Below, one piece after another: positions 15,656 through 60,878 of a stretch of DNA of 64,000 nt. The notes under the pieces are model-generated. The model did no database searches. It saw only the letters and a program-made list of their open reading frames with translations, and was not told the origin of the DNA. Position 1 is the stretch's first letter; every line of letters starts with the position of its first letter. Position numbers and translations under genes: made by a program. Origin of the DNA: Scilla litardierei (taxonomy: Eukaryota; Streptophyta; Magnoliopsida; Asparagales; Asparagaceae); assembly GCA_030789695.1 (NCBI GenBank), contig CM061130.1, positions 8,113,860 through 8,177,859 on the forward strand, given 5' to 3'.

Positions 15656-15948
15656 TGATCACTCCTCATTTTACACCTTTTTTCCGTGTATTCGCATGCC
15701 ATTTAGATCGCCCAAATCATGTTTTTCACGATATATCGACGATATTGCGATGCTTTTCACGATTTGTTGTTTTTGTCGCATTTCAGGTGATTTGGCACGA
15801 TTTGGAGTGATCTCGAGACGCGCTTACTCTAGACGGCCACCGACGACCTCCCCGAGGGATATTTTGCTGTTGGAGAGGAGAGGAAGAAGAATGGACGTCG
15901 CAGGAGCGACGAGGAGGCCAAAACAATCAGATTGGGCATCTTTTGTGT

Positions 15949-16340
15949 CCCACTCGGCCGAGTGGAGGAGCCACTCGGCCGACCAGCGAGACACTGCTCG
16001 GCCGACCCGTTCAGACACGATTTCCATGTGTACTCGGCCGAGCGTCGGAGTCCACATCGGCCGAGTGACGATACCACGTCCGCCCGAGTGGCGCCCAGAC
16101 GAAGCCCCTCCAAAATATCAAAGTTTCTGTTTTTCGGCCACCTGAGCTTCAGAAGACCCACTCAGCCGAGTGGCAAACCACGTCCGCCCGAGTGCAGTGA
16201 AGCCATCGGCCGAGTGACGACAACTCACTCGGCCGAGCCGCCTCCGAACTGAAGACCCCTGAAAGGCCCAACTTACTGGAAAATTACAGGGTTTTCACTC
16301 GGCCGAGCGACTTTTGTCACTCGGCCGAGTGCGATGCGCT
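15949..16340 (+). repeat. Array of CACTCGGCCGAGTG palindromes in U3
   Basis: About eleven full or partial copies of a 14-bp perfect palindrome (core CTCGGCCGAG), irregularly spaced and all upstream of the TATA box. Variants such as CATCGGCCGAGTG and CGCCCGAGTG lose part of one arm. The same array is in the 3' LTR (27196-27587), in Athila-B, and once more inside this element. The position suggests dimeric protein binding or another U3 control role; that is inference. Confidence 0.75.
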
Positions 16341-16414
16341 ACATGTAGCGAAATTTGCGGAAAACAGGCTGTGCAGGGGCGTTTTGGTCAGGATTTTTGG
16401 ACGATTTTTGGGGC

Positions 16415-16421
16415 TATTTAA
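16415..16421 (+). promoter_or_regulatory. TATA box of the Athila-A 5' LTR
   Basis: TATTTAA in GGGGCTATTTAAGCCC. It divides the palindrome array (upstream) from the hairpin array (downstream). Start of transcription is expected near 16450. Confidence 0.65.
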
Positions 16422-16812
16422 GCCCTGTTTTTACCCTAGTTTTGAGGAGCCATCTCTTAGATTTTTTGCAGCTTTTTGAGACTACTTTTTAGCTTTATTA
16501 TTTGTGATTGGAGAAGAGGAAAAACTTGGATTTTTGTTGGATTAATTAAAGAACTACATTGGTTTGCATCTCTCTTCCCCAAAAACTCTATTTTTATTGT
16601 TTATATCATTGTTGTGATGAATTCCATTGCCTATTTCATTGATTATTTTTGTGCTATTGCTATGATTTGTGAGTAGTCTCCACGTCTTGGGGCGTGGGGA
16701 TGAACCCTACAAGCCCAATTTCGTATTTGTGATAAATTGGTAGAAATTGTGCTAGAATCAATTATTAGGGATTAGATTGGGATCGAATTACTACGGATAG
16801 CTAGGTATTCAT

Positions 16813-17120
16813 ATCAATTGGGATTTGCAAGAGATTGGATCCCAATTTGATAGGAAGCCCTAGAAATCTGAATTGGGTTGGAGTCAGACTTTCGAAGTAT
16901 CGGTTTGCAAGAGATTGGACCGATACTAGGATCTCCGGTTGCAATTCCGTGCCGATACCCGTTTGCAAGAGATTGGACGGGTAGGAACTATCCTAATTTA
17001 GATTGTTGACCGAGTTTGCAAGAGATTGGGCTCGGTGCGCAATTGGACGATGATGTTGATCCTAATGCTAGCTTTCCTAGGCTAGGGTTTGCAAGAGATT
17101 GGACCCAAACCTAGGATAGC
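16813..17120 (+). repeat. Five hairpins with constant loop TTGCAAGAGATTGG and variable arms
   Basis: The 14-mer TTGCAAGAGATTGG occurs at 16825, 16905, 16963, 17016 and 17089. Each copy sits between a different pair of complementary arms: ATCAA-TTGGGAT/ATCCCAATTTGAT, AGTATCGGT/ACCGATACT (9 bp perfect), TACCCGT/ACGGGTA (7 bp perfect), ACCGAG/CTCGGT, and GGGT/ACCC extended by CCTAGG/CCTAGG. The array lies in the transcribed leader, between the TATA box and the primer site. Confidence 0.85.
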
Positions 17121-17481
17121 TATAGACCGACAACAGCGCGAGAGCGTGAGCTTGGTTCCACATTTAGTTGTAACTAGTTCATCCAAATTCTCATTCTAGC
17201 AATTTTGATACCGACAAACCACATTTATGAAATACGGTGAGTAGCGGGGATTCCCCATTCCCTAGACGTTCTTTATTTGATTTGATATTTCGCACATTTG
17301 TCTGACGATTGTGACAGGATCGCCCAAGGCAACTCTCTCTATTCTTAAATAGCCAGGTTGATTAGGAGCAAGCACGGTCATTCGTCCTCCCTGTGTTCGA
17401 TACCCGCTCGCCGCTATACCGTGCGCTTGCGGTAAAACTACAACCGTTCTTTTGGTGTACGTCCCGGAGCGATCAAGTTTT

Positions 17482-17499
17482 TGGCGCCGTTGCCGGGGA
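17482..17499 (+). other. Primer binding site, tRNA-Asp type
   Basis: TGGCGCCGTTGCCGGGGA is the complement of the 3' end of plant tRNA-Asp, the usual primer of Athila elements. It lies 6 bases after the LTR. Confidence 0.9.
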
Positions 17500-17645
17500 A
17501 GACGTTTTGACGGTGTTTGGCATCGACCACCCGGTTATTTCTTCTTTCTTTCTTTCTTCATCCTCCTCTATATCTTATTTTAACTTTATTCGCAGCCCTA
17601 TTTGCATATTCTCCCCGTATTTTGCATAAGATCTTAACAGGGAGA

Positions 17646-20600
17646 ATGGAGGATGCACTGCCAATAATGGAACTCAGTCGAGAAGACTATGACTCCTTCA
17701 CAGACCTCCTTAAGGAGCTTGTTGACGAGGCCCACGCTACCGGAGCATTTGCTATTGATATCAAAGACCCAGACGAACAACTATTTGCTAGTTTTGTGAT
17801 GGACCAAATCTCCCCGGAGGGGACTATCGGAGGCAATGTCAGAGTTGACGTGGTCGACGACAAATTGTATTTCGAAGACAATAGAGCGAGTGTCGAAGAA
17901 CACTATGCTCCCGAAGAACCCTTCGAGCAAACCGACATTCAGGGAGTTACACTCTATGACGCTCACTCTTGTTTTTATGAATCGTCTGATGTGTTTCTTG
18001 ATTCCAGGTACGAACTGGAGCAGAGTGAAGGTTTTGGCGATGCTAGCCCTGAATCGGAGGGCGCCTATTTCGATGCCTCATCCTCACTAAGTAGCGAGTC
18101 TGACTCGTCACAAGAAAGCATGCCACCTGAACATGAGTTAAACCCGGATGACAAGGAAAAAGTCGAACTCATGCGAGCCGATGAAGTGGAAGGAGCAGCG
18201 CCACCTGAGGTAGAGCTTAAACAATTACCGCCGAATCTAAGGTATGCCTTTTTGGGTAATAAATTGACTTTCCCGGTGATAGTCAATTCCCACCTCACAC
18301 AAGATCAAGTTGAAAAACTCCTAGACGTTCTTAGGAGCCACAAAGATGTCTTGGGATACACTATCTCCGATCTAAAAGGGATAAGCCCTAGGCTTTGCAC
18401 GCATTGGATCCATTTAGAGGATACCGAAGCCACCTCCATAGAGCCTCAAAGGCGGTTAAACCCGAACATGAAGGAGGTGGTTAAAAAGGAAATCCTAAAA
18501 TTGCTAGAAGCCGGTATAATTTATCCTATCTCTGACAGTAGATGGGTTAGCCCCGTTCACGTCGTCCCCAAGAAAGGGGGGATGACTGTCATAAAAAATG
18601 AAAAAGGTGAGCCAATATCTACGCGCACTGTCACAGGATGGCGAATGTGCATTGACTATAGGAAACTCAATAAAGCCACCCGAAAGGACCATTACCCATT
18701 GCCATTCATTGATCAAATGCTTGAACGCCTCGCGAACCATAAATACTTTTGCTATCTAGACGGGTATTCGGGTTTCTTCCAAATCCCTTTGCACGAAGAT
18801 GACCAAGAAAAGACAACTTTTACTTGTCCCTATGGCACCTATGCATACCGTAGGATGCCGTTCGGCCTTTGTAATGCTCCCGCCACTTTTCAAAGATGTA
18901 TGACATCCATATTTTCCGATTATATTGAAAACATTATGGAAGTTTTTATGGATGATTTCTCGGTTTACGGAAGTGAGTTTGACTCTTGCTTGGAAAATCT
19001 CACTAAAGTCCTAAAAAGGTGCCAACAAAACAATCTCACTCTCAATTGGGAGAAGTGTCACTTCATGGTAACGGAAGGTATAGTTCTCGGACATCTTGTT
19101 TCCTCAAGAGGAATCGAGGTAGATAAAGCAAAAATTGAGGTAATCGAAAAACTTCCTCCTCCTATTAATGTTAAGGGCATTAGAGGTTTCCTTGGTCACG
19201 CGGGGTTTTACCGCCGCTTCATCAAGGATTTCGCCTCGATTGCCCGGCCTCTTACTTCCTTGCTCGCTAAAGATGTTCCTTTTGACTTTTCAGGAGAATG
19301 CTTGCAAGCTTTCAACACCTTGAAGGAAGCACTAGTCTCAGCGCCTATCATACAACCGCCGGATTGGAGCCTCCCTTTTGAGCTAATGTGCGATGCTAGC
19401 GACCAAGCCATTGGAGCGGTATTGGGACAAAGGAAAGATAGGAAGCTTCATGCGATATACTACGCAAGCAAGACATTGGATGACGCGCAGAAAAACTACA
19501 CAACTACCGAGAAGGAGCTTCTAGCGGTCGTCTATTCTATAGAGAAGTTTCGCTCCTACCTCCTCGGTTCCAAGGTGATTGTCCACACCGACCATGCGGC
19601 ATTGAAGTATCTTTTAAACAAGAAGGAGGCCAAACCCCGGTTGATTAGGTGGATACTCTTGTTGCAAGAATTCTACCTAGAGATCAGAGATAAGAAGGGT
19701 ACAGACAATGTCGTGGCGGATCATTTATCTAGGCTCATTCGCGACAAGGAGGATGAGAGCTTACCTATTGATGACACATTTGTTGATGAGAGGCTATATG
19801 CGGTAAGGACCGGGGAAGTACCTTGGTACGCGGACTTCGTCAACTACTTGGCTTGCGGAATCAAACCGCATGGGATGTCCACGCAACAAAAGAGGAGATT
19901 TATGCATGAGGTCCGTAGCTACTTTTGGGAAGATCCTTACCTTTTTAAGATATGCAAAGATAGTGTCATTCGTAGGTGTGTTTCTAAAGAGGAGGCAACG
20001 TCTATCATTTTGCATTGCCACGGTCTACCATGCGGGGGACATCATGCCGCCTCTAAAACCACCGCTAAGATCTTGCAGAGCGGGTTCTTCTGGCCGACAA
20101 TGTTTAAAGACACCCACAACTTTGTAAAAGGGTGCGATAGATGCCAACGGACCGGGAATATCTCCAAGCGCAATGAAATGCCAATGAGGCCCATCCAAGA
20201 AATCGAGCTTTTTGATTGTTGGGGAGTAGACTTCATGGGACGATTTCCATCGAGCAATGGCAACAAATACATCCTATTGGCCGTCGACTACGTCTCCAAA
20301 TGGGTGGAGGCAATCGCCACTCCTACTAATGATGCAAGGGTCGTCTCCAAGTTCTTCAAGCAAAATATCTTCCCGCGCTTTGGAGTGCCGCGTACCTTGA
20401 TAAGCGACGGGGGAAGCCACTTCATAGAGAACAAGTTTGAAGCCATGCTAAAGAAGTACGGGGTAAATCATAGAGTTGGCATGGCTTATCACCCCCAGAC
20501 AAGCGGCCAAGTGGAAGTCTCAAATAGAGAGATCAAGCAAATTCTCGAGAAAACCGTGGATCGGTCTAGAAAGGATTGGTCAATGAAGTTAAACGATGCT

Positions 20601-21527
20601 CTATGGGCTTATCGCACGGCCTTTCGCACCCCCATCGGTACCACCCCGTTCCGTCTAGTTTATGGGAAGGCCTGCCACTTGCCGGTAGAGTTGGAGCACC
20701 GCGCATATTGGGCCATCAAGACCTTTAACTACGACTACAAGAGTGCGGCGGTGAGGCGACTCTTGGACATCAACGAGCTTGATGAAATAAGGAGAGACGC
20801 CTATGAGAGCTCGAGAATTTACAAGGAAAGGACCAAGATTTTCCACGATGCCCGCATAACCGTCACGGACTTCAAGGTAGGAGACAAAGTCTTGCTCTAC
20901 AATTTCCGGCTCCGACTATTTCCCGGTAAGTTGAGGTCACGTTGGTCCGGACCTTTCACCATCAAGCATATACAACCGGGAGGAGCTTTCGAGTTGGAGA
21001 GCAAGGACGGTTCCACGTTCAAAGTAAATGGTCAAAGGCTCAAGCACTATTCCGAAGGAATCCCGACGGGCGAAACCAATAGGGTATATTTGCTCAAGGA
21101 ACGGTCGGATGATCTCATGGACCTCCTTGACGAGGTTATAGAAGAAGCGATTCCTCACTCAATTGGCGCCCTTTTTGATGAAGAATTTGAAGAAGGCCCG
21201 GATTTAGGCCGAGATGAAAAGAATGAAGACGATTCCCCCGACTTCTCCGCTGATGAAGATGAAGGCGACGCTGATGTCGCAAGGATTCGAGAGCTCTGCA
21301 AGCTCTCGAAATTAAAGTCTCCAAAGAAAGCTCCGCCGGCACGGAGACCGGCATCACCGGTTAAGCCGTTGACCGGAGCAAACGCTAGCTTGGGGGAGCC
21401 TCCCCCCAACACTATTCGAGACGAGAGACCACCGCGGGAGAACTCGCCGCCGCCACATCCAAATCCAAGCGCGCTCCCCGGAAAGTTTGACGGGTGCATC
21501 CCGTATGCACCAAACATCCCGCATTGA
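17646..21527 (+). CDS. Athila-A polyprotein: acidic N-terminal domain, RT, RNase H, integrase
   Basis: An intact frame; I start it at the ATG at 17646 (1293 aa) because upstream codons overlap the leader, though the frame is open from 17517. Residues 1 to about 190 are acidic and unassigned. RT then follows with [27 protein letters not shown] and catalytic FMDD at residue 434. RNase H has its first aspartate at residue 583 (MCDASD), then [13 protein letters not shown] and [11 protein letters not shown]. Integrase has the zinc domain [11 protein letters not shown]...CDRCQ at about 790-832 and a full DD35E triad: D862, D921, E957. A GPF-type C-terminal domain (RWSGPFTI) and an acidic, proline-rich tail of about 150 aa finish it. 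It copies RNA into cDNA and inserts it in the nucleus. Gag and protease are missing, which is unusual for an element this young. Confidence 0.93.
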
Positions 21528-21572
21528 TTGAAAATTATAGGGGGTCGAGCTCACGACCTTAAACGAGCGCTT

Positions 21573-21590: not shown

Positions 21591-21845
21591 GGTTTTTGCT
21601 TTATTTATACTTTTCTTTATTTTCGTTTTAGAAATTTTTAGTGTTTCGAGTCGTTCGCCCAAAAATTTTGTGATAACGGGTCCTATTTTTCTCGACAGGA
21701 GAGGAGATAGGTAGATACATCATGAGGAGGATGAACGAGACGACGAGGGGCGCCCCAAGAAGGCGTTCGACGCTTAGGAGGAGGATGAAATCGACTGGAG
21801 GAAGAAAGACGGAGTTTAGAGCCCAAACGAAGACAAACAGCAGAA

Positions 21846-26902: not shown

Positions 26903-28722
26903 TGATCACTCCTCATTTTACACCTTTTTTCCGTGTATTCGCATGCCATTTAGATCTCCCAAATCATGTTTTTCACGATATATCGACGATATTGCGATGC
27001 TTTTCACGATTTGTTGTTTTTGTCGCATTTCAGGTGATTTGGCGCGATTTGGAGTGATCTCGAGACGCGCTTACTCTAGACGGCCACCGACGACCTCCCC
27101 GAGGGATATTTTGCTGTTGGAGAGGAGCGGAAGAAGAATGGACGTCGCAGGAGCGACGAGGAGGCCAAAACAATCAGATTGGGCATCTTTTGTGTCCCAC
27201 TCGGCCGAGTGGAGGAGCCACTCGGCCGACCAGCGAGACACTGCTCGGCCGACCCGTTCAGACACGATTTCCATGTGTACTCGGCCGAGCGTCGGAGTCC
27301 ACATCGGCCGAGTGACGATACCACGTCCGCCCGAGTGGCGCCCAGACGAAGCCCCTCCAAAATATCAAAGTTTCTGTTTTTCGGCCACCTGAGCTTCAGA
27401 AGACCCACTCGGCCGAGTGGCAAACCACGTCCGCCCGAGTGCAGTGAAGCCATCGGCCGAGTGACGACAACTCACTCGGCCGAGCCGCCTCCGAACTGAA
27501 GACCCCTGAAAGCCCCAACTTACTGGAAAATTACAGGGTTTTCACTCGGCCGAGCGACTTTTGTCACTCGGCCGAGTGCGATGCGCTACATGTAGCGAAA
27601 TTTGCGGAAAACAGGCTGTGCAGGGGCGTTTTGGTCAGGATTTTTGGACGATTTTTGGGGCTATTTAAGCCCTGTTTTTACCCTAGTTTTGAGGAGCCAT
27701 CTCTTAGATTTTTTGCAGCTTTTTGAGACTACTTTTTAGCTTTATTATTTGTGATTGGAGAAGAGGAAAAACTTGGATTTTTGTTGGATTAATTAAAGAA
27801 CTACATTGGTTTGCATCTCTCTTCCCCAAAAACTCTATTTTTATTGTTTATATCATTGTTGTGATGAATTCCATTGCCTATTTCATTGATTATTTTTGTG
27901 CTATTGCTATGATTTGTGAGTAGTCTCCACGTCTTGGGGCGTGGGGATGAACCCTACAAGCCCAATTTCGTATTTGTGATAAATTGGTAGAAATTGTGCT
28001 AGAATCAATTATTAGGGATTAGATTGGGATCGAATTACTACGGATAGCTAGGTATTCATATCAATTGGGATTTGCAAGAGATTGGATCCCAATTTGATAG
28101 GAAGCCCTAGAAATCCGAATTGGGTTGGAGTCGGACTTTCGAAGTATCGGTTTGCAAGAGATTGGACCGATACTAGGATCTCCGGTTGCAATTCCGTGCC
28201 GATACCCGTTTGCAAGAGATTGGACGGGTAGGAACTATCCTAATTTAGATTGTTGACCGAGTTTGCAAGAGATTGGGCTCGGTGCGCAATTGGACGATGA
28301 TGTTGATCCTAATGCTAGCTTTCCTAGGCTAGGGTTTGCAAGAGATTGGACCCAAACCTAGGATAGCTATAGACCGGCAACAGCGCGAGAGCGTGAGCTT
28401 GGTTCCACATTTAGTTGCAACTAGTTCATCCAAATTCTCATTCTAGCAATTTTGATACCGACAAACCACATTTATGAAATACGGTGAGTAGCGGGGATTC
28501 CCCATTCCCTAGACGTTCTTTATTTGATTTGATATTTCGCACATTTGTCTGACGATTGTGACAGGATCGCCCAAGGCAACTCTCTCTATTCTTAAATAGC
28601 CAGGTTGATTAGGAGCAAGCACGGTCATTCGTCCTCCCTGTGTTCGATACCCGCTCGCCGCTATACCGTGCGCTTGCGGTAAAACTACAACCGTTCTTTG
28701 GGTGTACGTCCCGGAGCGATCA
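26903..28722 (+). repeat. 3' LTR of Athila-A
   Basis: 1820 bp, the same length as the 5' LTR with no gap seen. It has the same palindrome array (27196-27587), TATA box (27662-27668) and hairpin array (28060-28367). By eye I count about ten substitutions between the two LTRs. Confidence 0.94.
28060..28367 (+). repeat. Second copy of the constant-loop hairpin array
   Basis: Offset by 11,247 bases from the 5' LTR copy. All five TTGCAAGAGATTGG loops and their arms are unchanged. Confidence 0.85.
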
Positions 28723-32503: not shown

Positions 32504-32515
32504 GATGGGGGAAAT
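32504..32515 (+). other. Polypurine tract of the outer element
   Basis: GATGGGGGAAAT directly before the TGATTCG start of the 3' LTR. Confidence 0.75.
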
Positions 32516-33152
32516 TGATTCGATTATTTTGGAGAAGGCCGAGAACAAGAGGCCTGAGCCCAAACCAAGGGCAAGAGAACAACGAGTGGGATTTGGCCCA
32601 ACCGACGAGGCCCACGAAAGGACTCGGAGTCGGACCCGTCGCGACCCGACATACACGCGATTAGCCCATGCTCGTAGGAGATAACCGTTCCCCTAAAAGC
32701 ATGGCACCTTAATGACCATTCAGGAACCCGTCAATCGACTCCCCCACGACGCAAGCAGGCGCCTCTATAGAGGCAGATCGTGGAGGCATGAGAGGGGAGC
32801 AGTCAGGGGACGTGGATTGGGGGCAATCGTGGGCCAAACCCTATAAAAGGACTACAGAGGCAACCGAGAAGAGGATCGAATCCCCGACATCTAGAATGAA
32901 GGTATTCCATTAAAAGACCTTGCTTTTCCCATTATCTTCCCTCCCCTAGCTCGGTCTGAGGATACGTGTGCTGGCCACCTTTCAAGTCGTACCGATCCCG
33001 ACGAGCATCATTCAGATCCATTCTAACTTAGGCATCGGAGGGGACTTGGCCGGAACTAAGGTCCGGCCCCCTGACGAGTTTTTTTGTCTATCCAGGAAGA
33101 AGCAGAACCGAGGTGCCGAGGCTACCCCTCAGCGTAGAACGAGCCCGCCCAC
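32516..33152 (+). repeat. 3' LTR of the outer Tat element, left part
   Basis: Matches the 5' LTR from its first base to the GAGCCCGCCC segment, where Athila-B cuts in. TATA box at 32842-32849. Confidence 0.9.
33148..33152. repeat. Target site duplication of Athila-B, left copy (mutated)
   Basis: CCCAC here against CCCGC at 60879-60883. The uninterrupted 5' LTR of the outer element has CCCGC at this point, so the left copy carries one G-to-A change. Confidence 0.8.
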
Positions 33153-33549
33153 TGATCGACCTCGGATATACACCCGGAAAACGATTGTAGTTTTACTGCA
33201 AGCGCATGGTGTAGTGGCGAGCGGGTATCGAACACGAGGAGGTGGAGTTGGCTCCAATCTATCCTAGGTTGGTTCTACTACGAAGGTATTATTGGTGGAG
33301 ATGGGTATGGTATGATGTAATGACAATGGTGATGGATGTCGGTGTCGGTGATAGAGAAGTTAGATAAATATCGATTCAAATTTAATATAATAAAAGCATA
33401 TATGGCTAGGGAATCCCAACTAAAGATCGTCATGCATTTCTGTGAATCGTGAATCTCAATGTTACTAGACTTGGACTGAGGTGAACTAGTCATAACTGAA
33501 TAGAGAACCAAGCTCACACTCTCGCGCTATTGCCGGTCTATAACAACGT

Positions 33550-33850
33550 AGATTAGGGCCCACTCTTGTGCAAACCCTAATCTAAGCCACTAGCATGAAG
33601 ATCGACATCATCGTCCAATCGCTCCTCGAGCCCACTCTCATGCAAACTCGAGTTACGATCTAAGTTGTGATAGTTCGTATTCGCCCAATCTCTTACAAAC
33701 GAATATGGGTATATGTTTATAATAGAAATCCTAGCTTTGGTCAAATCTCTTGCAAACCAAGTCTAGTGGATCTCGATTATAAACCTAAATCGAATATCTA
33801 GGCCTTCCCATCGATCGGAATCCAATCTCTTGCAAACCCCAAATCGATGG
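33550..33850 (-). repeat. Five constant-loop hairpins of Athila-B, left copy
   Basis: Minus-strand loops are variants of TTTGCAAGAGATTGG. Arms on the + strand: AGATTAGGG/CCCTAATCT (33550/33575), CTCGAG/CTCGAG (33625/33647), TATTCG/CGAATA (33678/33700), TTGG/CCAA extended by CTAG/CTAG (33731-33766), CCATCGAT/ATCGATGG (33808/33843). Order and surroundings match the five Athila-A hairpins, but most arm sequences differ. Confidence 0.85.
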
Positions 33851-34217
33851 AAATTCCTATCTATCTGTAATAAATCAATCACAACCTAACCCCTTTATCA
33901 ATTCCAGCAACATAGAGATTCATTCATCACAAATCCGAAGTTAGATCCATAGGGTTCATTCCTTTGCCCTAGAACAGCGAATCTACTCAAGCATAACAAT
34001 AACGATGGAGAAATCAATAAAAAACATTACTTGCATATATAAAGATATCAAATCAAAGATTCAAATAATAAGTACGAAGATACTTAGCTTTGATGAAGAA
34101 CTTCAATCCCAATACAAGCTTTTAGATCCAAGAGGGGGACTAGGGCATGGCCTAACCTCAAAAAAGTCTATAAGAAAACTTAATGGAACCCCCCCTCTAA
34201 TGACAGCTACAAACCTC

Positions 34218-34224
34218 TTATATA
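34218..34224 (-). promoter_or_regulatory. TATA box of the left Athila-B LTR
   Basis: Minus-strand TATATAA within GGGGCTATATAAGAGG. Same place relative to palindromes and hairpins as in Athila-A. Confidence 0.65.
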
Positions 34225-34317
34225 GCCCCCTCAAAACCATAGCAAAAACCCCTAAAAATCCTCTGAAACCCGTGCCCAAAATCAGATCTGCGCATAACTT
34301 AAGTTCTGGGCCAGCAG

Positions 34318-35075
34318 CGACTCGGCCGAATGGAAAGCTCACTCGGCCGAGTGAGAATTCCTGTAGAAACTCCAAAAAAACAGCACTCTGTCAAAACTAT
34401 CAAAAACTGGTCACTCGACTGAGTGGAAAGCTCACTCGACCGAGTGAAAGTGTCACTCGGCCGAGTGACACTGATATGCGAATTCCACTGCAGCATCAAC
34501 TTGCAGAAAGTATCTAGATTTCATCCGACCTCCGATTGATGCGTTATTGGCATTGTTGGAACTGTCATGAAGTCTGCTATCCATAAAAAATATGAGAAAA
34601 ATAATTTGTCCACTGAAATGATAACAGATTTCAAAAGAGTGGGAGGCTGTCGGAAAATCTGGGCGCTCGTGTCATCGGCGTCACTCGGTCGAGTGGGATT
34701 CTTCACTCGGGTGAGTGGACTTCTCTACTCGGCCGAGTATGGTCTTCTGACGTTCTCCCAAAATTCCAGAGAGTCTGCTTCGAAGTCAGGGTTTGGGCAC
34801 TCTGACGCTCTGCGTCACTCGGCCGAGTGGGATTCATCACCCGGCCGAGTGGGTCTTCTGCTGTGCTCCCCAGAATTTCAGAGAGTCTGGTTCGATTTCC
34901 TTCAGAAGTTGAACTCACTCGAGCGAGTGGAGTTCTCTACTCGGTCGAATGGAATTCACCACTCGACTGAGTGCATTGTGGTACTCAGGTCAGGCAGATG
35001 TTCTTCGTATCAGTCATACTCGGGCGAGTACACTGCTTCACTCGGGTGAGTAACTAGCGTGACTCGGCCGAGTGG
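34318..35075 (-). repeat. Palindrome array in U3 of the left Athila-B LTR
   Basis: More than fifteen CACTCGGCCGAGTG-type copies, including variants whose centre changes symmetrically or nearly so (CTCGACCGAG, CTCGAGCGAG, CTCGACTGAG, CTCGGGCGAG). All lie upstream of the minus-strand TATA box. Confidence 0.75.
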
Positions 35076-35378
35076 CATGTTTCTGGAATCCTTCCTTCTC
35101 CTCCTCGCCTCCTCGACGATTCTATCGATCTTCTTCTTCTCCCGCTCATCGTCCAGCGCCGTTAGCTCTTCAATAAGGCCATGAGCGATGCTTCAATACG
35201 CGTATAAGTCATTTAGGCTCATTTTTGCTCCCGATTGCTCCATATTTCCTGAAATCAGACGAAAACAAGAAATATTGAAAAGTAACGAAATATCGTCGAA
35301 TAATAATGAAAATCGCAATATGAGCAATTGAAATGGCATGCAAATATTCAGAAAAAGGTGTAAAATATGGACCGATCA

Positions 35379-37215: not shown

Positions 37216-37235
37216 GGGATATATATATATATATA

Positions 37236-37613
37236 GGGCAATCTTCCATTGCGAAAAAATGGTGCGAAAGCCCGTGCGAAAACATTTTTTTTATTTTTTT
37301 GAATTTTTTTTTCAAAATTTCTTTTTTTGATGTTTAATCCATACAAATATATACCCCAGGGAAAATAATGGGTGAACCCGTTGGGCATTAGAGCACCCAT
37401 CCACCAGTTACAAATTTAACGGTCTCAAAACGTGCGAATTTGATGAAATGCCTTGATCGAAGGCCAAATGACATTATTTCTCAACCATTATTTTTTGAGG
37501 GGGGTATAACAACATATGATGAGGGTGGAAAAAAGAATTTTTGAAAAAAAAAATTTCAAAAAAAAGATAAAAACATTTTCGCACCGTGCGAAATGTTCTC
37601 ATTTGAAAATTTT

Positions 37614-37614
<1 letters not shown>
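37236..37614. mobile_element. MITE-like element in a TA-rich site
   Basis: About 379 bases with imperfect terminal inverted repeats of about 80-90 bases. The left end contains GTGCGAAAACATTTTTTTTA and the reversed right end GTGCGAAAATGTTTTTATC; both then run into long T tracts. TA repeats flank both sides, so the exact TSD cannot be told. No coding capacity. Confidence 0.6.

Positions 37615-37656
<42 letters not shown>
37615..37656. repeat. (TA)n microsatellite
   Basis: An almost pure TA run of about 40 bases. A shorter TA run lies at 50834-50847 on the far side of the Helitron, as expected if the Helitron inserted into one TA microsatellite. Confidence 0.85.
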
Positions 37657-37658
<2 letters not shown>

Positions 37659-38077
37659 TATAAAACAGGACCTTTTTTGAATCTTATCATACTAGGACAA
37701 ATATTTATCCTACGTGGCAAGCAAAAGCTGACTAGGATAAACTTAAATGATGACTAGGATGGGTTTGGGGGAATTTTGTAATTTAAAAACTCAAACATTT
37801 GAAAACTCAAAGCTTAACCAAACTTTAAGAGGGGGAAAACCAAATTGGGGAAAACCAAACTCGGTTCCCCAAAAAATTTGAAAACACCAGCAAACTTTAA
37901 GAGGGGGGAAACCAAAAAACTGGGGGGAAATTTTGTTTGCTTATTTCGGGCCACCAGCAAAATCATCCCGTTCTCCCCCCTCTCTCTTCCCCCCTCCATC
38001 TCTCCCTCCCTCCCCCAAAAACCTCATATCAAGGCCATACACAAACGCAACGACCTCCGGAGCTCAAAAGGCCGATG

Positions 38078-38400
38078 GTGAAGCAGCTGATGAGCTACGA
38101 TCCTGGGGAGTAGACGGAGGTGCTCCGCAGAGAGTATCTACTCCTCATCGATGGTTTCTTCTCCATCCCCTTCCCCTCCCTTCTCCGCTTCACCACTTAC
38201 GGCAGGGCCCCTCAGTTAATTATTCCCAATTGATCATTATCATTATTGGTATGGTTTTCCAATTGATCATTATTGGCTTTTGATCTGGTGTTCCAATTGA
38301 TCAATTCACTGCTAGGCCCGGAAGAAGGTGGCGAATGAGGACAGAAGAGAAAAAGAGGAGGATATGTTAAACGAAGGAGAAGGCGGAGGATATGTTAGGT
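38078..38400 (+). pseudogene. Captured cytochrome P450 fragment, CYP90A/CPD-like
   Basis: Translation gives MVKQLMSYDPGE, a stop where tryptophan is expected, then [20 protein letters not shown] and later ARKKVAN...REKEEDML. VKQLMS(F/Y)DPGEW and the following EGFFSLPLP-type segment are typical of CYP90A (CPD), a brassinosteroid-pathway P450 of the endoplasmic reticulum. Only a middle piece is present. It lacks the haem-binding cysteine region, has a stop and frame changes near 38190-38310, and cannot be functional. The family call rests on memory of the motif. Confidence 0.62.
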
Positions 38401-39118
38401 GACCCTTGCTGTCAAATTCCTAACGGAGACCCCTCCTGCTCTTGCTCTCCTCAAGGTTATCCTCCTCATCCTTCCCATTCCAGCATTTCTCTAAGCATGG
38501 CCATGTGATTAGAACTGAAAATCTCCTGAGCCCCTCACATTTCTCTAAGCATGACCATCATTTTGATTCTAAGCTTTTAACGATCATTGATTTTCAAGCA
38601 TTTACAGGTTGTTGGTTCTAGGCTCAGGCTCAGGCTCAGGCTCAGGATGTGGCTGGTTCACTTCTGCAGGTTATTGGTTCTGATTACTATGGTTCTGGTT
38701 GCCGACCCCAGCATTACCTTCAGATTGGTCGAAAATCATGGAAGAATGAAAAATTTGTCAGATATAATACTAATATGCTTAAAAACAAGTGTTTTTTATT
38801 CATGGATCTGGTAAAAAACAAGCAATTTTTATTCATGGATCTGGTAACAAGATCCTATCATCTTATAAGAATAGATACACGTATCTCTCTCATCCCAAAT
38901 TTGCTTCAATAAATACATGGTTGGCTGAATTAACATAAATTGATATTCGAGTTGTTGAATTTACACAAGTTTATAATAGTAGGGATCGTAGATAATTTGA
39001 GGATTCTGATTGCATCATATCAGCATGGATTTAGGCCATAAAAATTTTGATTGTCTTATGTGGCTCCAGCATTATGCTCAAGATTATATCAATAACTCTA
39101 ACAATTTACAATCAAGAA
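38190..39118. other. Helitron interior, P450 tail and unassigned sequence
   Basis: Beyond the P450 fragment I recognise no gene. There is a short tandem AGGCTC repeat near 38620-38646, and short direct repeats of a 38-base unit near 38788-38845. Confidence 0.4.
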
Positions 39119-39136
39119 TTATATTAGCTCAATTAT

Positions 39137-39332
39137 TTTCAGGTCAAATCCGTGGTTCTTGAGCTCTCTGTATTCTTGGCACATGGCGCAGAGCTCGCAG
39201 TAGCAATGGAGGAGACAGTCGATGCAAGGGCTCTCCGTCAAGTTGTACTGACCCCTCATCTTTGATCGATAAATGCACGAGTATATGCAGTGGCAGCATG
39301 TAAACCACTCCAGAAGTGCATACAGGGCTCCG
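39137..39332 (-). pseudogene. Captured PLAC8-family fragment (PCR/cell number regulator type)
   Basis: The minus-strand frame reads [50 protein letters not shown] and [10 protein letters not shown]. [19 protein letters not shown] is the signature of PLAC8 proteins of the plant cadmium resistance / fw2.2 type, small cysteine-rich membrane proteins. The exon seems to start after a TTCACAG acceptor near 39333. The N-terminal part with the CC...CPC motif is missing, so this is a fragment. It is the only captured piece found on the minus strand of the Helitron. Confidence 0.8.
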
Positions 39333-39429
39333 CTGTGAACATATGAGGATATTGCTTCAGTAAATTCATGTACCCTATCAAAGGCAGAGATAAATTTATC
39401 ATAATTATAGGGGCACTGCATCAAAAGGT

Positions 39430-41775
39430 TTTTTTAGCATGGTGAAGAAGCAAGGGAGGAAGAGGTATCTGCATACATATTTTTTTTTAATATCCATGGG
39501 ACAGACCTTATTTATTATACTGACAATGCATGCTTTACTGCTGGGAAGTCTATGTATTTTTGCTCTTCTAATGTCTATTATAGATATGTTATGCTCTTTG
39601 ATCGGTAAAAATCTTATGATTTTCTTTTAAGCACCAGTGAGTGCACCTTCCTTCTTCCTTTGTTTGAATGGACCTGGGGACATATTTTGTTTCACGAATC
39701 ATTACCAAAAAAGTAACAAAAACTAAAACCCAGTCATCAAACATTCATTATATAAGATGCTTTTCAACTACAACCTTGCATCATCTGCTACCCAAAACGA
39801 GCTCTTGAAACCAGCAACTTGCAACCTACGCTTCAAATGATGCATAACGTTTTGGTTTAAATCATGACTGATTTCTATATGGACCTGGGGACATATTTTG
39901 TTTCATGAATCATTACCAAATCATGACTGTATTAAGTGGTGCCTGCCTTGATCTTGGGGAAGAGCAGGTATGCTTTTTGAGTTTATGTTTTTCTTCATCT
40001 TGGTGTTCTAAAAACATGATTTTGTGTGTTGGGTAATCTTCTAAAAACATGATTTTGTGTGTTGTCTCTAATTGCCATGATCAGACATGAATTATTGTAT
40101 TTCTCGAATCAAACGTGAATATTGTACATTGATATATGTCATGTGTAAATGTCTCAAATTAGTTATTTTTAATCTTATAGATTTCAAAGATTTGTATGTT
40201 CTATGTTCTGAATCAAATTGAGTTGAATTTTGATTGGATGTGTGAGGTTTTAAAGGAGGAATTGTGTTGGAATTTGTGGTTGTTTAATTTCATAGAGAGC
40301 AAAGTAATTCTATGGAAAGTTTAATTACCAAGGTAGAATGACTTATATCTATGGAAAATGTAATTCTCAAGGTAGAATGATTTCATTTTTCCGTATGGTT
40401 AAAAGCATTACTACAGCCACCTCAATGTTTGTTTTATCTGAACATAAAAAAATAGTATGATTTTCCTTCAAATTTGGTACATTATCTGAACAATGATGTT
40501 TTTGTAACAACGGCAGCAATAGTATGATTTTCCTTCAAATTTTTCTCTCTCCAGGTTCTTTTCATCGTCTATTCTTATATTTGCTAGGAAAATTCTTGCA
40601 ACAGAAATATTTTTTTGTCTATTTAGTGTTCTGATTTGACTATCTCATTGATTTCTCCAGGTTATTTACACTTAAGATGCTATCCTTTATCCTTTGGAAT
40701 TGGCATGTTCTTATTTCTCATCTAATTGTTGATTATGCCAATTAGAGATGTGGTGTCATAAATCAATTTTTTACAACATCCACGGGCAGGTGGGTCGGTC
40801 AGCGAGTAGGTGGGTAAGTGAGGGAACTAAAGACAGAACTTTGTTTTCCATTTGATAACAATCTAATGTGAAAAACAAATTCAGATTAGAAAAATAAAAA
40901 TTATTGATTTTAACTAAATTAAATTAAATTATTTGTATTATAGCATTTGAAAAGCATATTCAGAAATTTAGCTAATACATTTTTGTGCTGGTAAGATGAA
41001 AAGGATTTAAATATAGAGACTGATTTTGATCATTGGAAGAGTTTCGACATATGTGTGACTTCATGGTCACTTTTTGTCCATTGGGTTGATTTGCTATGCT
41101 TGCTCAATTGTTTTGAATTTTACTATCTTAATTTGTTTCTCAATTGAAAACGATGAAAAAAATGGTCAATCAACAATAAATTGAATTGACGATTTTTCTT
41201 ATTTTCATCTTGCAGGCTTCACCTATAGAAAGTTCTGTCTCTAATTTACGACGATTCTTCCTGGCCTCAACAGTCTAAATCTGGAAAGTAAGCTCTCACC
41301 ATCTCTAAAATCTCTCCATCTCTATGCTATCAAGAAATATTTCCACTGTTCCCAAGAATTATAGCATATAGTTAAATCCACCCAATAAAAGAACTATTTT
41401 TACTGGAATTTGTCGATTTATCCTCATTGCTAAGATTAGAATTATTAATGGTTAGTCAGAATATAATGAGGGTTCATCACATTTATAATGATATGGATAC
41501 GTTCTAAATTAAATTTAAAAGTGTAGTATTGATTAGGAGCTGCCTTCAGGTTTTTATCAAATATTTGCATAAATTGAATGTATTAAATGAGAGTAACATA
41601 GATGAGCATCTCTTGCCCTAAAAAATTGAATTTTCCACTTCTTTTTACGATGATAGAAAAGAAGTTGGTTATAAGACCAAGTTGAAGAAAGTCATGGTAA
41701 TGTCTCAGTTTCATCATTCATTCTTTCTTTCTTTTAAGCCAATTACGCCTGATTTTTGTTTCTTAATAAAATTGG
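39430..41775. other. Helitron interior, unassigned intron-like sequence
   Basis: AT-rich, T-rich on the + strand, intron-like. A short possible exon lies at about 41221-41287 (acceptor TTGCAG, donor GTAAG), but its translation matches nothing I know. Confidence 0.4.
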
Positions 41776-41778
41776 AAG

Positions 41779-42280
41779 GTCGATCTGATGGTTAACAAAA
41801 TGAGAAGCAATGAAGATTTTGGGCCACTATTGCTGAAGCCTCTCCTTAGGGTGACTTTCTTCATCCCTTGCAACGTCCACGGCAATTCGAACAATAGCGA
41901 ATGCAACATGTACTGCTTGGATTGTACATGGAGTGCGCTCTGTACATATTGCACCATCCTCATAAAAATCTTCATGTTGTCCAGGTTGCTTGCTTTCTCA
42001 TTTTCTTCACAATTAAAATAGTTTTTGTTGGATTCTAACAATTGATGGTCATTGTCTGGTTCTTCGTTTAGATTTAGAGGTCATCTTACAACAATGTGAT
42101 TAAGGTCTCCAAGGTGTCAAAATTCATCGACATCTCCTGTGTTCAGACCTACATTATCAACACTCCAAGATCATGTTCCTCAACGAATAACCTAGGCTGG
42201 GCAAAGGTGTTACCAACAACCACAAGATTTGTTGCCGGAGTCTGCTCGATTCTTTCCAATTTTGTTCTCTGGGATGCAAG
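41779..42280 (+). pseudogene. Captured PLATZ transcription factor fragment
   Basis: Exon a (to about 41981) reads LLLKPLLRVTFFIPCNVHG, then SECNMYCLDCTWSALCTYC, then HPHKNLHVVQ after a frame change. Exon b (from about 42076) reads RSSYNNVIKVSKVSKFID, VQTYIIN, and after a second frame change FLNE...KGVTNNHKICCRSLL and FCSLGCK. These are the zinc-binding blocks of PLATZ proteins, plant-specific A/T-rich DNA-binding regulators. An intron-like gap of about 95 bases separates the exons. Two frameshifts make it non-functional. Confidence 0.85.
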
Positions 42281-42289
42281 GTTTGCAAT

Positions 42290-43085
42290 GCTACTATGTG
42301 TTTCAGGCATTGAGCTATTTGTTATTTTCTTTTTAGCAATGCTAAGCTAGCAAGGATTACAATTCTTTGTTGCCTATTTGTTAGTTATGAGTACTAATCG
42401 GTATAGTATCGTGTCAGATGTTATTTTAAATGTTGGTTATAACACTATTGTCACTATGAATCTATAAGTTAACCTGCTATGTATTGTAGAAAGTCAGAGC
42501 AATTGGTGCTAGGAAGATGAATCATCTGTAAACTTAGATATTGTTCTTGCCAATTTCTACTTCTTAGGTATTTCTTTCAATTTTTTGGTGCTTCATGGGA
42601 AATGATTGTTCTATATGTAGTACTTACATCATTAGATTATGGAACTCATTGTTGCTTATGGCACGTGATCTATTGTTGCTCAAGCACGCAATGGATCTCT
42701 CCATGAAGCAGGATTACCTTCACATGGAGCGCCATGTTTTTAAATTCTGCTCATTTATATATTTTTTGGGATTTATTGTTGAATACATATGATGTCTTAA
42801 ATCAATTATGTCAAGCTGATGGATGTTGCTTGGTGTGATTTGCAGTATATGCTTCAATGCAAACATGAAAAAATTTCTTATGTTTGGAGGAGAATAACGA
42901 TGATTAAGAAAAATATATTGTTGGCCATATTGAATAAATGACTTCGACCATTTTTTTTAAAAATAAAAATGCTCTCTTTTGGTTGTCTTTAGATCAATTT
43001 TGATGGATTTCGTTAATTGTGATTGAAAATTGAATTTTCCCATGTTGGTTTTAGGTGTTTGAATTGATGAAGAAGAAGGAATTTT
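42290..43085. other. Helitron interior between PLATZ and SnRK2 fragments
   Basis: AT-rich, no protein motif recognised. Confidence 0.4.
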
Positions 43086-43255
43086 GGGGTGGCCAAGTTG
43101 GTTGTGGCAGTTTTGGGGTGGCCAAATATTGAAGGAGATTGCTTTGGGCAAATCTGGGGTAGCCAAATTGGTCAGGGATCTGTGGTCCGAATAGATCTAT
43201 GCTGTCAAGTTCATTAAGAGATGAGAGAAGGTCTAAGCTCTTCTTGCAACTCTTT
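43086..43255 (+). pseudogene. Captured SnRK2 kinase fragment: glycine-rich loop exon
   Basis: Reads GKSGVAKLVRDLWSE, a stop, then IYAVKFIKR, a stop, then EK. This matches the SnRK2 start G-x-G-x-FGVAKLVRD...AVKYIERGEK with the ATP-binding lysine in VKFI. The TTTGGGGTGGCCAA block that encodes FGVAK is repeated twice just upstream (from about 43083). A plausible donor, GAAG/GTCTAAG, follows. Confidence 0.75.
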
Positions 43256-43572
43256 CGATCTGTTCTATTATGTGAACTGGGTTTTGGGTTGAGATTCTAC
43301 TTTTAAAACAAATTTTGGAATATTGGTTTTGTTTGTTTTTATTTTCATATTCAAGTCTGCTTAAAAATCAGCGCGATACGAATTCTATACAAGTTCTTGG
43401 TGGCTTAATGGTTTACTATTTGTTTTCAAAGTAAAAAATGGGTTTTCTAAATTCCCTATTGCAGTTTGGAATTTTTATTCAAAATCAAAGTTTGACAGTT
43501 GTTTGTTCTTGGGTTCATGACTATTAACATCAGTATTTGATTAATTTCTTTTTCTGAATTTTTTCCTGATAA

Positions 43573-43652
43573 GCAGATAGATGAGAATGTGCAGATGGAG
43601 ATCATGAATCATAAATTGTTGGGGCATCCAAATATAGTATGGTTTAAATAGG
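43573..43652 (+). pseudogene. SnRK2 exon 2, copy 1
   Basis: After an acceptor-like TAAGCAG it reads IDENVQMEIMNHKLLGHPNI and then VWFK, the SnRK2 ENVQREIxNHRSLRHPNIVRFKE block. A stop follows VWFK. Confidence 0.82.
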
Positions 43653-44057
43653 CAGGTCTAATTTTTACTTTGTTTCATGATATTTTACTCGAATATAGAA
43701 GAAACCTTTTGATTTTAAGCATTTTGTGGTTGTACTATGTTTTATTATTATTATTGAATAATTATTGTTGCTTACAATTATTGAAAGGTGATGTCCATTC
43801 TCATCTTTAGTTTTTAAGTCCATTATGCTTCCTATTTTCATTGCTTTCAGAATCTGGACATTTCTTGCTAAGTTTAATACTAACAACTCCCATCAATATT
43901 TAGATAGAAACTTTTTTCTTTGATTATTATTGATTTGTCATTTAAGACATTGATTTGAGCATCAGTAATATATAAAGGATCACTTTCAGTTGGCTTTTGG
44001 TTATTCACATCATTATTTGATTTTGATGTCTTTGTTTAATTTTTTTTCCCCTAATAA

Positions 44058-44145
44058 CAGATACATGAGCATGTCAGTGGGAGATCATGAACCATAGATC
44101 ACCAAGGCTTCCAAATATAGTAAGATTTAAGGAAGCAAGTCTATT
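44058..44145 (+). pseudogene. SnRK2 exon 2, copy 2
   Basis: The same exon again, about 490 bases later: IHEHVS, a frame change, then EIMNHRSPRLPNIVRFKEA. Introns on both sides are duplicated with it, so this is a tandem duplication inside the captured DNA. Confidence 0.8.
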
Positions 44146-44369
44146 TTTTGTCTGTTTCATGATATTTTAACTGAATATAAAAGAAACCTTTTGATTTTAA
44201 ACATTTGTGGTTATGCTCTATATTATTATTATTATTATTAAATAATTATTGTTGCTAACAATTATTGAAAGGCGACGTCCATTCTCATCTTCAGTTTTTA
44301 ATGCCATTAAATCTCCTATTTTCATTACTTTCAGAATCTGGACATTATCCGACTAAGTTTAACGTTCAC

Positions 44370-52747: not shown

Positions 52748-52909
52748 TGATCGGCCCCGGATATACACCCGAAAAACGATTATAGTTTTACCGTAAGCGC
52801 ACAATGTAGTGGCGAGTGGGTATCTAACACGAGGAGGTGGAGTTGGCTCCAATCTATCCTAGGTTGGTTCTACTACGAAGGTATTATTGGTGGAGATGGG
52901 TATGGTATG
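52748..52909 (-). repeat. 5' LTR of Athila-B, part left of the copia insertion
   Basis: 162 bases matching 33153-33312, then interrupted at GTATG by the copia element. Confidence 0.85.
52905..52909. repeat. Target site duplication GTATG, left copy
   Basis: Precedes TGTTGGATCC and recurs at 58823-58827 after CCCATCA. Confidence 0.92.
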
Positions 52910-58822: not shown

Positions 58823-58827
58823 GTATG
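58823..58827. repeat. Target site duplication GTATG, right copy
   Basis: Exact match of 52905-52909. Confidence 0.92.
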
Positions 58828-59059
58828 ATGTAATGACAATGGTGATGGATGTCGGTGTCGGTGATAGAGAAGTTGGATAAATATCGATTCGAATTTAATA
58901 TAATAAAAGTGTCTAGGGCTAAGGAATCCACATTAAGGATCGTCATGCATTTCTGTGAATTGTGAATCTCAATATTACTAGACTTGGATTGAGGTGAACT
59001 AGTCGTAACTGAATAAAGAACCAAGCTCACGCTCTCGTGCTATTGCCGGTCTATAGCAA

Positions 59060-59362
59060 CTTAGATTAGGGCCCACTCTCGTGCAAACCCTAATCTAAGC
59101 CACTAGCATGAAGATCGACATCATCTTCCAATCGCTACTCGAGCCCACTCTCGTGCAAACTCGAGTTACGATCTAAGTTGTGATAGTTCGTATTCGTCCA
59201 ATCTCTTGCAAACGAATATGGGTATATGTTTATAATAAAAATCTTAGCTTTGGTCCAATATCTTGCAAACTAAGTCTAGTGGATCTCAATTATAAACCTA
59301 AATCGAATATCTAGGCCTTACCATCGATCGGAATCCAATCTCTTGCTAACCCCAATCGATGG
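59060..59362 (-). repeat. Five constant-loop hairpins of Athila-B, right copy
   Basis: The first has a perfect 12-bp stem, CTTAGATTAGGG with CCCTAATCTAAG; the left LTR copy has lost part of it. The fifth keeps CCATCGAT/ATCGATGG. Confidence 0.82.
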
Positions 59363-59727
59363 AAATTCGTAGCTATCCGTAATAAATCAATCACAACCTA
59401 ACCCCTTTAGCAATTCCAGCAACATAGAGATTCATTCATCGCAAATCTGAAATTAGATCCATAGGGTTCATCCCATTGCCCTAGAGCAACGAATCTACTC
59501 AAGCATAACAATAACGATAGAGAAATCGATAAAAAACAGTACTTGCATATATAAAGATATCAAATCAAAGATTCAAATAATAAGAACAAAGATACTTAGC
59601 TTTGATGAAGAACTTCAATCCCAATACAAGCTTTTAGATCCGAGAGGGGGACTAGGGCATGGCCTAACCTCTAAAAAGTCTCTAAGAAAACATAATGGAA
59701 CCCCCTCTAATGACGGCTACAAACCTC

Positions 59728-59734
59728 TTATATA
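59728..59734 (-). promoter_or_regulatory. TATA box of the right Athila-B LTR
   Basis: Minus-strand TATATAA, located between palindromes (upstream) and hairpins (downstream). Confidence 0.65.
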
Positions 59735-59829
59735 GCCCCCTCAAAACCCTAGCAAAAACCCCTAAAACCCCTCTGAAACCCATGCCCAAAATTAGATATG
59801 CGTGTAACTTAAGTTCTGGGCCAGCAGCA

Positions 59830-60578
59830 ACTCGGCCGAGTGGAAAGCTCACTCGGCCGAGTGAGCTTTCCTGCAGAAACTCCAAAAACAGCACTCTGTC
59901 AAAAACTGGTCACTCGACCGAGTGGAAATCTCACTCGACCGAGTGAAAGTGTCACTCGGCCAAGTGACACTGATATGCGAATTCCAACACTGTAGCATCA
60001 ACTTTCAAAAATTATCTAGATTTCATCCTACCTCCGATTGGCACGTTCTTGGCAGCGTTGGAACCATTATGAAGTTTACTATCCATAAAAAATATGAGAA
60101 AAATAATTTGTCTGCTAGAATGATAGAAAATTTCAAAAGGGTGGGAGGCTATCGGAAAATATGGGCGCTCGTGTCATCGGCATCACTCGGCCGAGTGGGA
60201 TTCTTCACTCGGGCGAGTGAACTTCTCTACTCGGCCGAGTATGGTGTTCTGACGTTCTCCCAAAATTCCAGAGAGTCTGCTTCGAAGTCGGGGTTTAGGC
60301 ACTTTGGCGCTCTGCGTCACTCGGCCGAGTGGGATTCATCACTCGGCTGAGTGGGTCTTCTGCTGTGCTCTTCAGAATTCCAGAGAGTCTGGATCGATTT
60401 CCTTTAGAAGTTGACCTCACTCGAGCGAGTGGAGTTCTCTACTCGGTCGAGTGGAATTCACCACTCGGCCGAGTGCATTGTGGCACTCAGGTCAGGCAGA
60501 TGTTCTTCGTATCAATCGTACTCGATCGAGTACACTGCTTCACTCAGGCGAGTAACTAGCATGACTCGACCGAGTGGC
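59830..60578 (-). repeat. Palindrome array in U3 of the right Athila-B LTR
   Basis: Same array of CACTCGGCCGAGTG-type sites as at 34318-35075. Several sites that are imperfect in one LTR are perfect in the other. Confidence 0.75.
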
Positions 60579-60878
60579 CTGTTTCTGGAATCCTTCCTTC
60601 TCCTCCTTGCCTCCTCGACGATTCTATCGATCTTCCTCTTCTCCTGCTCATCGTCCAGCGTCGTTAGCTCCTCAATAAGGCCATGAGCGATGCTCTGATA
60701 GGCGTATAAGTCCTTTAGGCTCATTTTGCTCCCAATTGCTCCATATTTTCTAAAATCAGACGAAAACAAGAAATAGTGAAAAATAACGAATATCGTCGAA
60801 TAATAATGAAAATCGCAATATGATCAATCGAAATGGCATGCACATATGCAGAAAAAGGTGTAAAATATGGACCGATCA

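Follow-up and report, generated by a model that had tools for sequence, protein, structure and literature searches.

The LTRs of two Athila-like elements in the window (the whole 64,000-nt stretch of Scilla litardierei DNA analyzed here) carry an array of five hairpins that share a near-identical tip. This five-hairpin structure is well supported. Many pairs are broken, though chiefly in copies undergoing decay, and the mismatches that are tolerated place the constraint on the sense RNA. Element A lies on the plus strand and element B on the minus strand, and the LTRs of both start with TGATC and end with GATCA. Their parts are as follows.

15656..17475, plus strand: Athila-A 5' LTR, from its LTR ends and 99.45% identity to the 3' LTR
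26903-28722, plus strand: Athila-A 3' LTR, 99.45% identical to the A 5' LTR
17479..17498, plus strand: PBS-like TTTTGGCGCCGTTGCCGGGG adjoining the A 5' LTR, from the sequence
17511..21527, plus strand: A pol-like frame (RT, RNase H, integrase), from Pfam
33153..35378, minus strand: Athila-B 3' LTR, 2226 bp, TGATC...GATCA, from its ends, the neighbouring repeat and 92% identity to the other B LTR
58823..60878, minus strand: main part of the Athila-B 5' LTR, from LTR comparison (92% identity to the B 3' LTR over this main part)
52748..52909, minus strand: last 162 bp of the Athila-B 5' LTR, then a PBS-like site, from LTR comparison

Pfam finds in A the domain set of an Athila/gypsy element, namely PF03078 (ATHILA ORF-1), RVT_1, RT_RNaseH and rve. 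With the Athila lineage of plant Ty3/gypsy it thus shares ATHILA ORF-1, RT/RNase H/integrase and the PBS-like site TTTTGGCGCCGTTGCCGGGG, which we take to be of the tRNA-Asp type used by Athila. Within 17511-24951, A has its ATHILA ORF-1 match 3' of pol. Among the frames of A and B tested with Pfam no Gag domain was recognised, and the CCHC motif is absent from the internal regions of both. B appears to be affiliated with Athila, judging from LTR similarity and its PBS-like site. The arrays that the sequence-only reading had described in B are real, but its picture of the element needs amending, as B is a single element with a 5' LTR interrupted by a different element. The latter (52909-58822) has LTRs of its own, 1.9 kb long and 97.7% identical, and matches a copia-type gag. 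The repeat that hosts B is found at 593-1530, 32513-33150 and 60879-61180, and the outer borders of B are readable because the copy at 593-1530 is uninterrupted.

The arrays and their hairpins have the following coordinates.

33544..33852, minus strand: five-hairpin array of the B 3' LTR (the interval of the original finding), from tip motif, alignment and RNAalifold
33806..33852, minus strand: B hairpin 1, RNAalifold helix 1, coordinates counted from the alignment
33712..33787, minus strand: B hairpin 2 with its long outer stem, inverted repeat, helices 2-4
33678..33705, minus strand: B hairpin 3, helix 5
33617..33660, minus strand: B hairpin 4 with outer stem, helix 6
33546..33587, minus strand: B hairpin 5, helices 7-8
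59057..59365, minus strand: five-hairpin array of the B 5' LTR, from the tip motif search
16808..17118, plus strand: five-hairpin array of the A 5' LTR, from tip motif, alignment and RNAalifold
16809..16855, plus strand: A hairpin 1, consensus structure
16874..16949, plus strand: A hairpin 2 with outer stem, consensus structure
16956..16983, plus strand: A hairpin 3, consensus structure
17001..17044, plus strand: A hairpin 4 with outer stem, consensus structure
17075..17116, plus strand: A hairpin 5, consensus structure
28055..28365, plus strand: five-hairpin array of the A 3' LTR, from the tip motif search

Searching with a single tip motif locates the five tips at 33560-33837 (minus strand) in B and at 16823-17102 (plus strand) in A. 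All four LTRs of the window have five copies of the motif, in identical order and at nearly the same spacing (80/58/53/73 in A, 80/57/53/72 in B), which bears out the claim that the hairpins of B are in register with those of A. The arm pairs said to have changed together were found as quoted for hairpin 3 (ACCCG/CGGGT in A, ATTCG/CGAAT in B), hairpin 1 (ATCAA/TTGAT and ATCGAT/ATCGAT) and hairpin 4 (ACCGAG/CTCGGT and CTCGAG/CTCGAG), as was the flank GGAACTATC/CGAACTATC after hairpin 3. When the A 5' LTR is compared with the B 3' LTR over 89 pairs of the structure, 55 are unchanged, 14 are kept by two-sided and 14 by one-sided changes, 4 are broken (3 one-sided, 1 two-sided) and 2 pass from unpaired to paired by two-sided change. 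Differences between the two B LTRs should be post-insertion, because both belong to the same element; from the 5' to the 3' LTR we count 3 kept, 3 broken and 3 unpaired-to-paired changes, none of them two-sided. The outer stem of hairpin 2 (33712-33787), overlooked in the sequence-only reading, also covaries, with a two-sided change in 6 of 14 pairs (helix 2). The minimum free energies have z-scores of -5.0 (A) and -7.2 (B), with none of 100 shuffles as good in either case. There are weak points: flush pairs number only 4-5 of 7 in A hairpin 5 and in B hairpin 2, the arms of B hairpins 1 and 5 are able to pair with each other at 6-7 of 7, and one fold of the B 3' LTR copy has other pairing in place of hairpin 3, which does form in longer folds.

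A wider sample was drawn from the genome at 63 places, to which the four LTRs of the window were added, 67 sources in all. Of the 63 places, 46 (16 loci and 30 others) were the first listed matches of a search for adjacent tip pairs, and 17 came from a search favouring copies near B. We found 68 arrays and kept the 66 with all five tips; two with four tips (in L065, and the second array of L069) were dropped. The covariation alignment contains 25 of the 66 copies. RNAalifold predicted 99 pairs, of which 89 were counted; we set aside the long-range pairing of columns 54-57 with 265-268 (four pairs) and a helix of six pairs in columns 242-258, none of which has a two-sided change. Standard pairs make up 97.4% of the pair cells, against 94.0% in shuffled alignments, 23 pairs have a two-sided change (12.6 shuffled) and there are 111 two-sided cells (39.4 shuffled); none of 500 shuffles reaches any of these values, which lean towards the counted structure since it was predicted from rows of the same copy set. 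Further pair types are 74 against 69.9, a value reached by 7 of 500 shuffles. When partners are slid by 1-3 bases, pairing falls to 21-51% and two-sided cells to 5-18. Hence, two-sided changes exceed both shuffled and slid controls, as expected of a conserved structured RNA. Over seven flush pairs, matched arms are 82% Watson-Crick (330 comparisons) and arms swapped within a copy 41% (1320 comparisons), and of 330 hairpins folded singly, 310 form four or more of the seven flush pairs.

The sequence-only reading had taken the paired changes as evidence for selection on structure, and had named single-sided, pair-breaking changes as frequent as paired ones in a wider alignment as the outcome that would speak against it. 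We ran this structure-aware count on a tree of the 66 copies, built from the non-stem columns, using parsimony on one tree and ignoring recombination. Changes on terminal branches are mostly post-insertion, and internal branches represent lineages that were replicating. On internal branches 77 changes keep and 16 break pairing, and 11 of the pairs are kept by two-sided change. On terminal branches 73 keep and 108 break, with 2 two-sided changes. The difference between the two classes of branches is highly significant (Fisher p ~1e-11). In a control where the same columns were re-paired at random (30 runs), internal branches have per run 27.2 keeping, 18.5 breaking and 0.2 two-sided changes, and terminal branches 37.0, 42.2 and 0.4. 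The adverse outcome is thus found on terminal branches, not on internal ones (77:16), and the selection reading survives the wider alignment provided that post-insertion decay is treated separately. These results support selection on structure, with pair keeping while lineages replicate and decay afterwards.

A stricter count, taking seven flush pairs per hairpin independently of the predicted structure, agrees in direction with a smaller margin. Kept and broken pairs are 25:7 on internal and 26:42 on terminal branches in the outer stems, 5:1 and 16:17 in the inner stem, and 63:43 and 73:110 in swapped arms, so that the internal excess of the outer stems over swapped arms is modest. Two-sided kept changes on internal branches number 7 (4 outer, 3 inner), against 0 in swapped arms. 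The pattern is found in both main clades: the B clade (35 copies) has 25:6 on internal and 37:68 on terminal branches, and the A clade (27 copies) 33-36:10 and 22-23:30.

The sequence-only reading had also called the loop nearly unchanged. The tip 15-mer is indeed highly conserved, but the loop contains a paired switch between CAA/UUG and CAC/GUG. The reading had also overlooked that most tips fold further, and that the shared loop is mostly closed, as seen in the minimum-energy fold of A and in the alignment fold. From the stem upward, the fold consists of a U-U, a two-base UG bulge, a 3-bp CAA/UUG stem, a GAGA tetraloop and a G. Among 330 hairpins there are 220 CAA/UUG and 73 CAC/GUG tips, one CAA/GUG, no CAC/UUG and 36 others, and the GAGA tetraloop is found in 313. 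Tip positions 7 and 12 have four internal-branch changes each, in both cases one in hairpin 4 and three in hairpin 5. The bulged GAGA form is obtained in 197 of the 220 CAA/UUG tips when single tips are folded. It is obtained in only 7 of the 73 CAC/GUG tips, 66 of which adopt a C5-G12 register with a six-base loop. The bulged form of the CAC/GUG tips would then rest on covariation, because single-sequence folding favours the other register; their fold is ambiguous, and it is not certain that the two types have one tip shape.

Conservation within the array is highest in the apical 15-mer. Its ratio of internal to terminal changes is 0.22, a conservation partly selected for by the search that supplied 46 of the places, which demanded exact tips in one adjacent pair; the ratio is 0.80 in the upstream flank, 0.59 in the downstream flank, 0.74 in the outer stems and 1.52 in those columns of the array that are unpaired. 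Third pairs of other kinds do exist in the tip (K/M pattern), but they are rare beside A-U: there are 57 genome-wide (27 U-A, 9 G-C, 12 G/A and 9 U/C), and 2 in the backward control.

The abundance of this motif had been overlooked as well. The exact CAA/UUG tip 15-mer occurs 166,684 times in this genome and the single-sided CAC/UUG tip 242 times, these being the two types covered by the genome-wide counts. Adjacent tip pairs number 100,783 genome-wide and 0 in the control. Since the usual spacing gives at most three such pairs per array, about 33,600 or more LTRs carry the array. The tip and tip-pair counts amount to a very strong evolutionary trace of the signal, with a built-in neutral control, as copies decay post-insertion.

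In most of the sampled LTRs the array has a similar position relative to a TATA-like box. Two TATA-like motifs are found in the window, both by motif match only.

34217..34225, minus strand: TATA-like CTATATAAG of B, ~390 nt upstream of the hairpin 1 tip
16414..16422, plus strand: TATA-like CTATTTAAG of A

Such a motif lies upstream of the array in 55 of the 66 copies, mostly at a distance of 386-415 nt from the hairpin 1 tip; in the other 11, none was found at up to 2 mismatches. A motif near the LTR end lies 578-636 nt after the hairpin 1 tip in 62 of 66 copies. Long alignments between the A and B LTRs cover their first 140 nt, a 527-nt block with the array and their last 90 nt; the remaining matches are of 17-47 nt. 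Lying ~390-410 nt downstream of the TATA-like box and upstream of the PBS, the array probably belongs to the genomic-RNA leader (R/U5), with start site and R/U5 boundary placed by the TATA-like motif, and full-length genomic RNA would therefore carry it.

Some carriers of the array seem to lack the means of their own mobilization. A B-type internal region read as a whole (L087, ~3.5 kb) matches the B of the window in two parts. A tblastn search of it with the A pol frame detected no RT, RNase H or integrase, the only significant match being a 61-residue stretch near the start of the frame. Its two longest forward pieces have no Pfam match, and a protein search with one open piece gave 617 candidates, none at E <= 0.001. 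We dropped this open piece as a candidate gag, which neither Pfam nor CCHC supports. The B of the window contains a 13.6-kb stretch (37234-50838) absent from L087, probably a nested insertion judging from this comparison. LTR pairs of other likely B-type copies are 4.7-5.9 kb apart and those of A-type copies ~10-11 kb, some being wider, with pairing inferred from spacing. B-type copies are thus probably non-autonomous in general, as far as one complete B internal region and these distances indicate. The B arrays stay constrained (25:6 on internal branches) despite the pol undetected in that region, and an array kept in a family without detectable pol should therefore act in cis for machinery from elsewhere.

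On function the sequence-only reading was silent. Our preferred reading, weaker than the structural result and put forward tentatively, with somewhat less than even confidence, takes the array for a cis-acting element of the Athila-type genomic RNA leader, most likely a packaging signal, with a Gag-directed step inferred. The sense RNA of the LTR would fold into five hairpins within the leader of the genomic transcript, and a near-identical tip on interchangeable stems could be recognised by an RNA-binding protein specific for sequence and shape, to which five copies of the tip would offer multivalent binding. Such a protein, supplied in trans, would land on the tips, so that genomic RNA would be selected into Gag particles, and partner elements would be recognised by way of this tip. 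We did not find the proposed binding partner, as the Gag domain and CCHC went unrecognised in the tested frames and the internal regions of A and B. Third-pair variation in the tip is not free, and this counts against the packaging reading. A bolder version, for which our confidence is lower, makes the array a possible packaging badge of the whole Athila network, where elements with pol and elements without it share five bulged-GAGA tips on drifting stems. If true, the trans-mobilization of tens of thousands of copies ran via the recognition of one tip, and the array would be, as far as our literature search shows, the first covariation-defined packaging element in plant Ty3/gypsy.

The strongest competitor, which we consider rather unlikely, is a sense-RNA element serving a host-factor step, such as the suppression or promotion of poly(A) site use in a long R, the nuclear export of unspliced RNA, or translation. 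Long structured R regions occur in some retroviruses, e.g. HTLV RxRE. If R is long, the array would be near both transcript ends, the constraint is found in A and B clades alike, and all the structural evidence fits this explanation equally. What speaks against it is that the array is kept in a B-type copy lacking detectable pol, where translation, or export for splicing control, might matter less. This argument is weak, as L087 retains two long open pieces.

Known systems offer analogies for packaging rather than tests. Retroviral packaging signals (HIV-1 psi, the MLV GACG hairpin pair, the MMTV purine loop) resemble the array in lying in the leader upstream of coding sequence and in having several stem-loops with short exposed purine loops. 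They differ in that here five hairpins have a near-identical tip, the array lies inside the LTR upstream of the PBS, and its binding by Gag is a proposal. According to excerpts of the respective papers, a purine loop in a stem-loop is a Gag site in MMTV (PMC8096270) and a GGAG tetraloop binds NC in HIV-1 (PMC7599994). GAGA alone would not be a generic NC site because, in the excerpt of PMC7599994, a non-native GAGA tetraloop in RSV SL-C lowers infectivity and GAGA was substituted for the dimer loop of HIV-1. Closer to plants, barley BARE2 is unable to make Gag and retains packaging and dimerization signals (excerpt of PMC3735527). The Gag-less partner of the BARE1/BARE2 couple thus keeps its signals, as B keeps the array without detectable pol, but these are Ty1/copia elements, of another superfamily, and a five-hairpin array is unmentioned in the excerpt of PMC3735527.

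A structured retroelement leader is a known kind of object; a five-fold shared tip is unusual. In the titles and abstract beginnings returned for Athila with hairpins we found no description of the array, and the literature search gave no direct precedent for such an array or packaging element in plant Ty3/gypsy. In the excerpts seen, two pepper-genome papers mention Athila and not hairpins (PMC7076952, PMC5664825), and a review of plant LTR elements mentions packaging and no such element (PMC12786077). Rfam 15 has no match in the 64-kb window at gathering thresholds, and IMG/VR none to two adjacent tips. The RNA signals choosing which plant retrotransposon transcripts get copied are poorly known, and non-autonomous families depend on them; for LTR elements other than BARE little is known of the packaged RNA (excerpt of PMC3735527). 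A defined RNA of ~310 nt and a 15-nt tip are directly testable, and the array offers a route to ask which partner mobilizes pol-less copies.

That the hairpins are dimerization (kissing-loop) sites, acting through the self-complementary TTGCAA of the tip, seems very unlikely to us, even if most tips contain TTGCAA or its TGCA core. The bulged fold ties up CAA in pairing with UUG and exposes GAGA, which lacks self-complementarity; GAGA is moreover the loop used to abolish dimerization in HIV-1 constructs (excerpt of PMC7599994). An exposed TTGCAA is not what folding gives, since CAA is paired in the 197 of 220 CAA/UUG tips mentioned above, and the common CAC/GUG tips (73 of 330) have no TTGCAA at all.

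The last two explanations dispense with selection on a sense-RNA structure, and we find both extremely improbable. The first has the arms as DNA palindromes (cruciforms or dimeric transcription-factor sites) or as an antisense RNA structure, on the ground that LTRs are regulatory DNA. A change that gives G·U in the sense RNA gives A·C in the antisense RNA. New mismatches on internal branches are 37 G·U and 7 A·C (14.7 and 8.7 per run in the re-paired control), against 55 and 47 on terminal branches (control 17.9 and 13.6), a significant difference (p ~7e-4), and standing cells contain 1137 G·U and 72 A·C. G·U is thus tolerated and A·C is not, therefore the constraint is on the sense RNA and not on DNA palindromes, and this asymmetry largely refutes the palindrome and antisense readings. 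In addition, the arms differ among the five hairpins, though not fully (41% Watson-Crick when swapped), unlike a fixed protein site. The comparison of internal with terminal branches and of G·U with A·C is applicable to other high-copy retroelements. U3 does carry a repeated palindrome that fits a regulatory DNA role, the 14-bp CACTCGGCCGAGTG, which, with up to 2 mismatches allowed, recurs on the upstream side of the TATA region in A and B LTRs, for example at 34300-34500 and 15900-16400; at least 2 copies per LTR are present in 64 of the 66 sampled, and 6-12 in 52 of 66.

The second explanation, an inherited ancestral array without structural selection, where block exchange among subfamilies or hairpins makes the paired changes, can appeal to subfamilies that look mosaic (e.g. 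L054), to a 15-mer near-identical among hairpins and to recombination, which could inflate paired-change counts under single-tree parsimony, but it has to face the 11 internal changes that keep pairing from both sides, where a re-paired run gives 0.2, and terminal branches that lose pairing as expected of neutral decay. Nor is the array homogenised, because CAC/GUG tips are found in 0 of 198 hairpins 1-3 and are frequent in hairpins 4 and 5. Gene conversion of the tip we likewise judge improbable. Finally, CGCGAGAGYGTGAGC at ~33510-33530 (minus strand) follows the hairpin 5 tip at a distance of 33-34 nt; at up to 4 mismatches it is present in all 66 copies, and it may represent a sixth GAGA hairpin.
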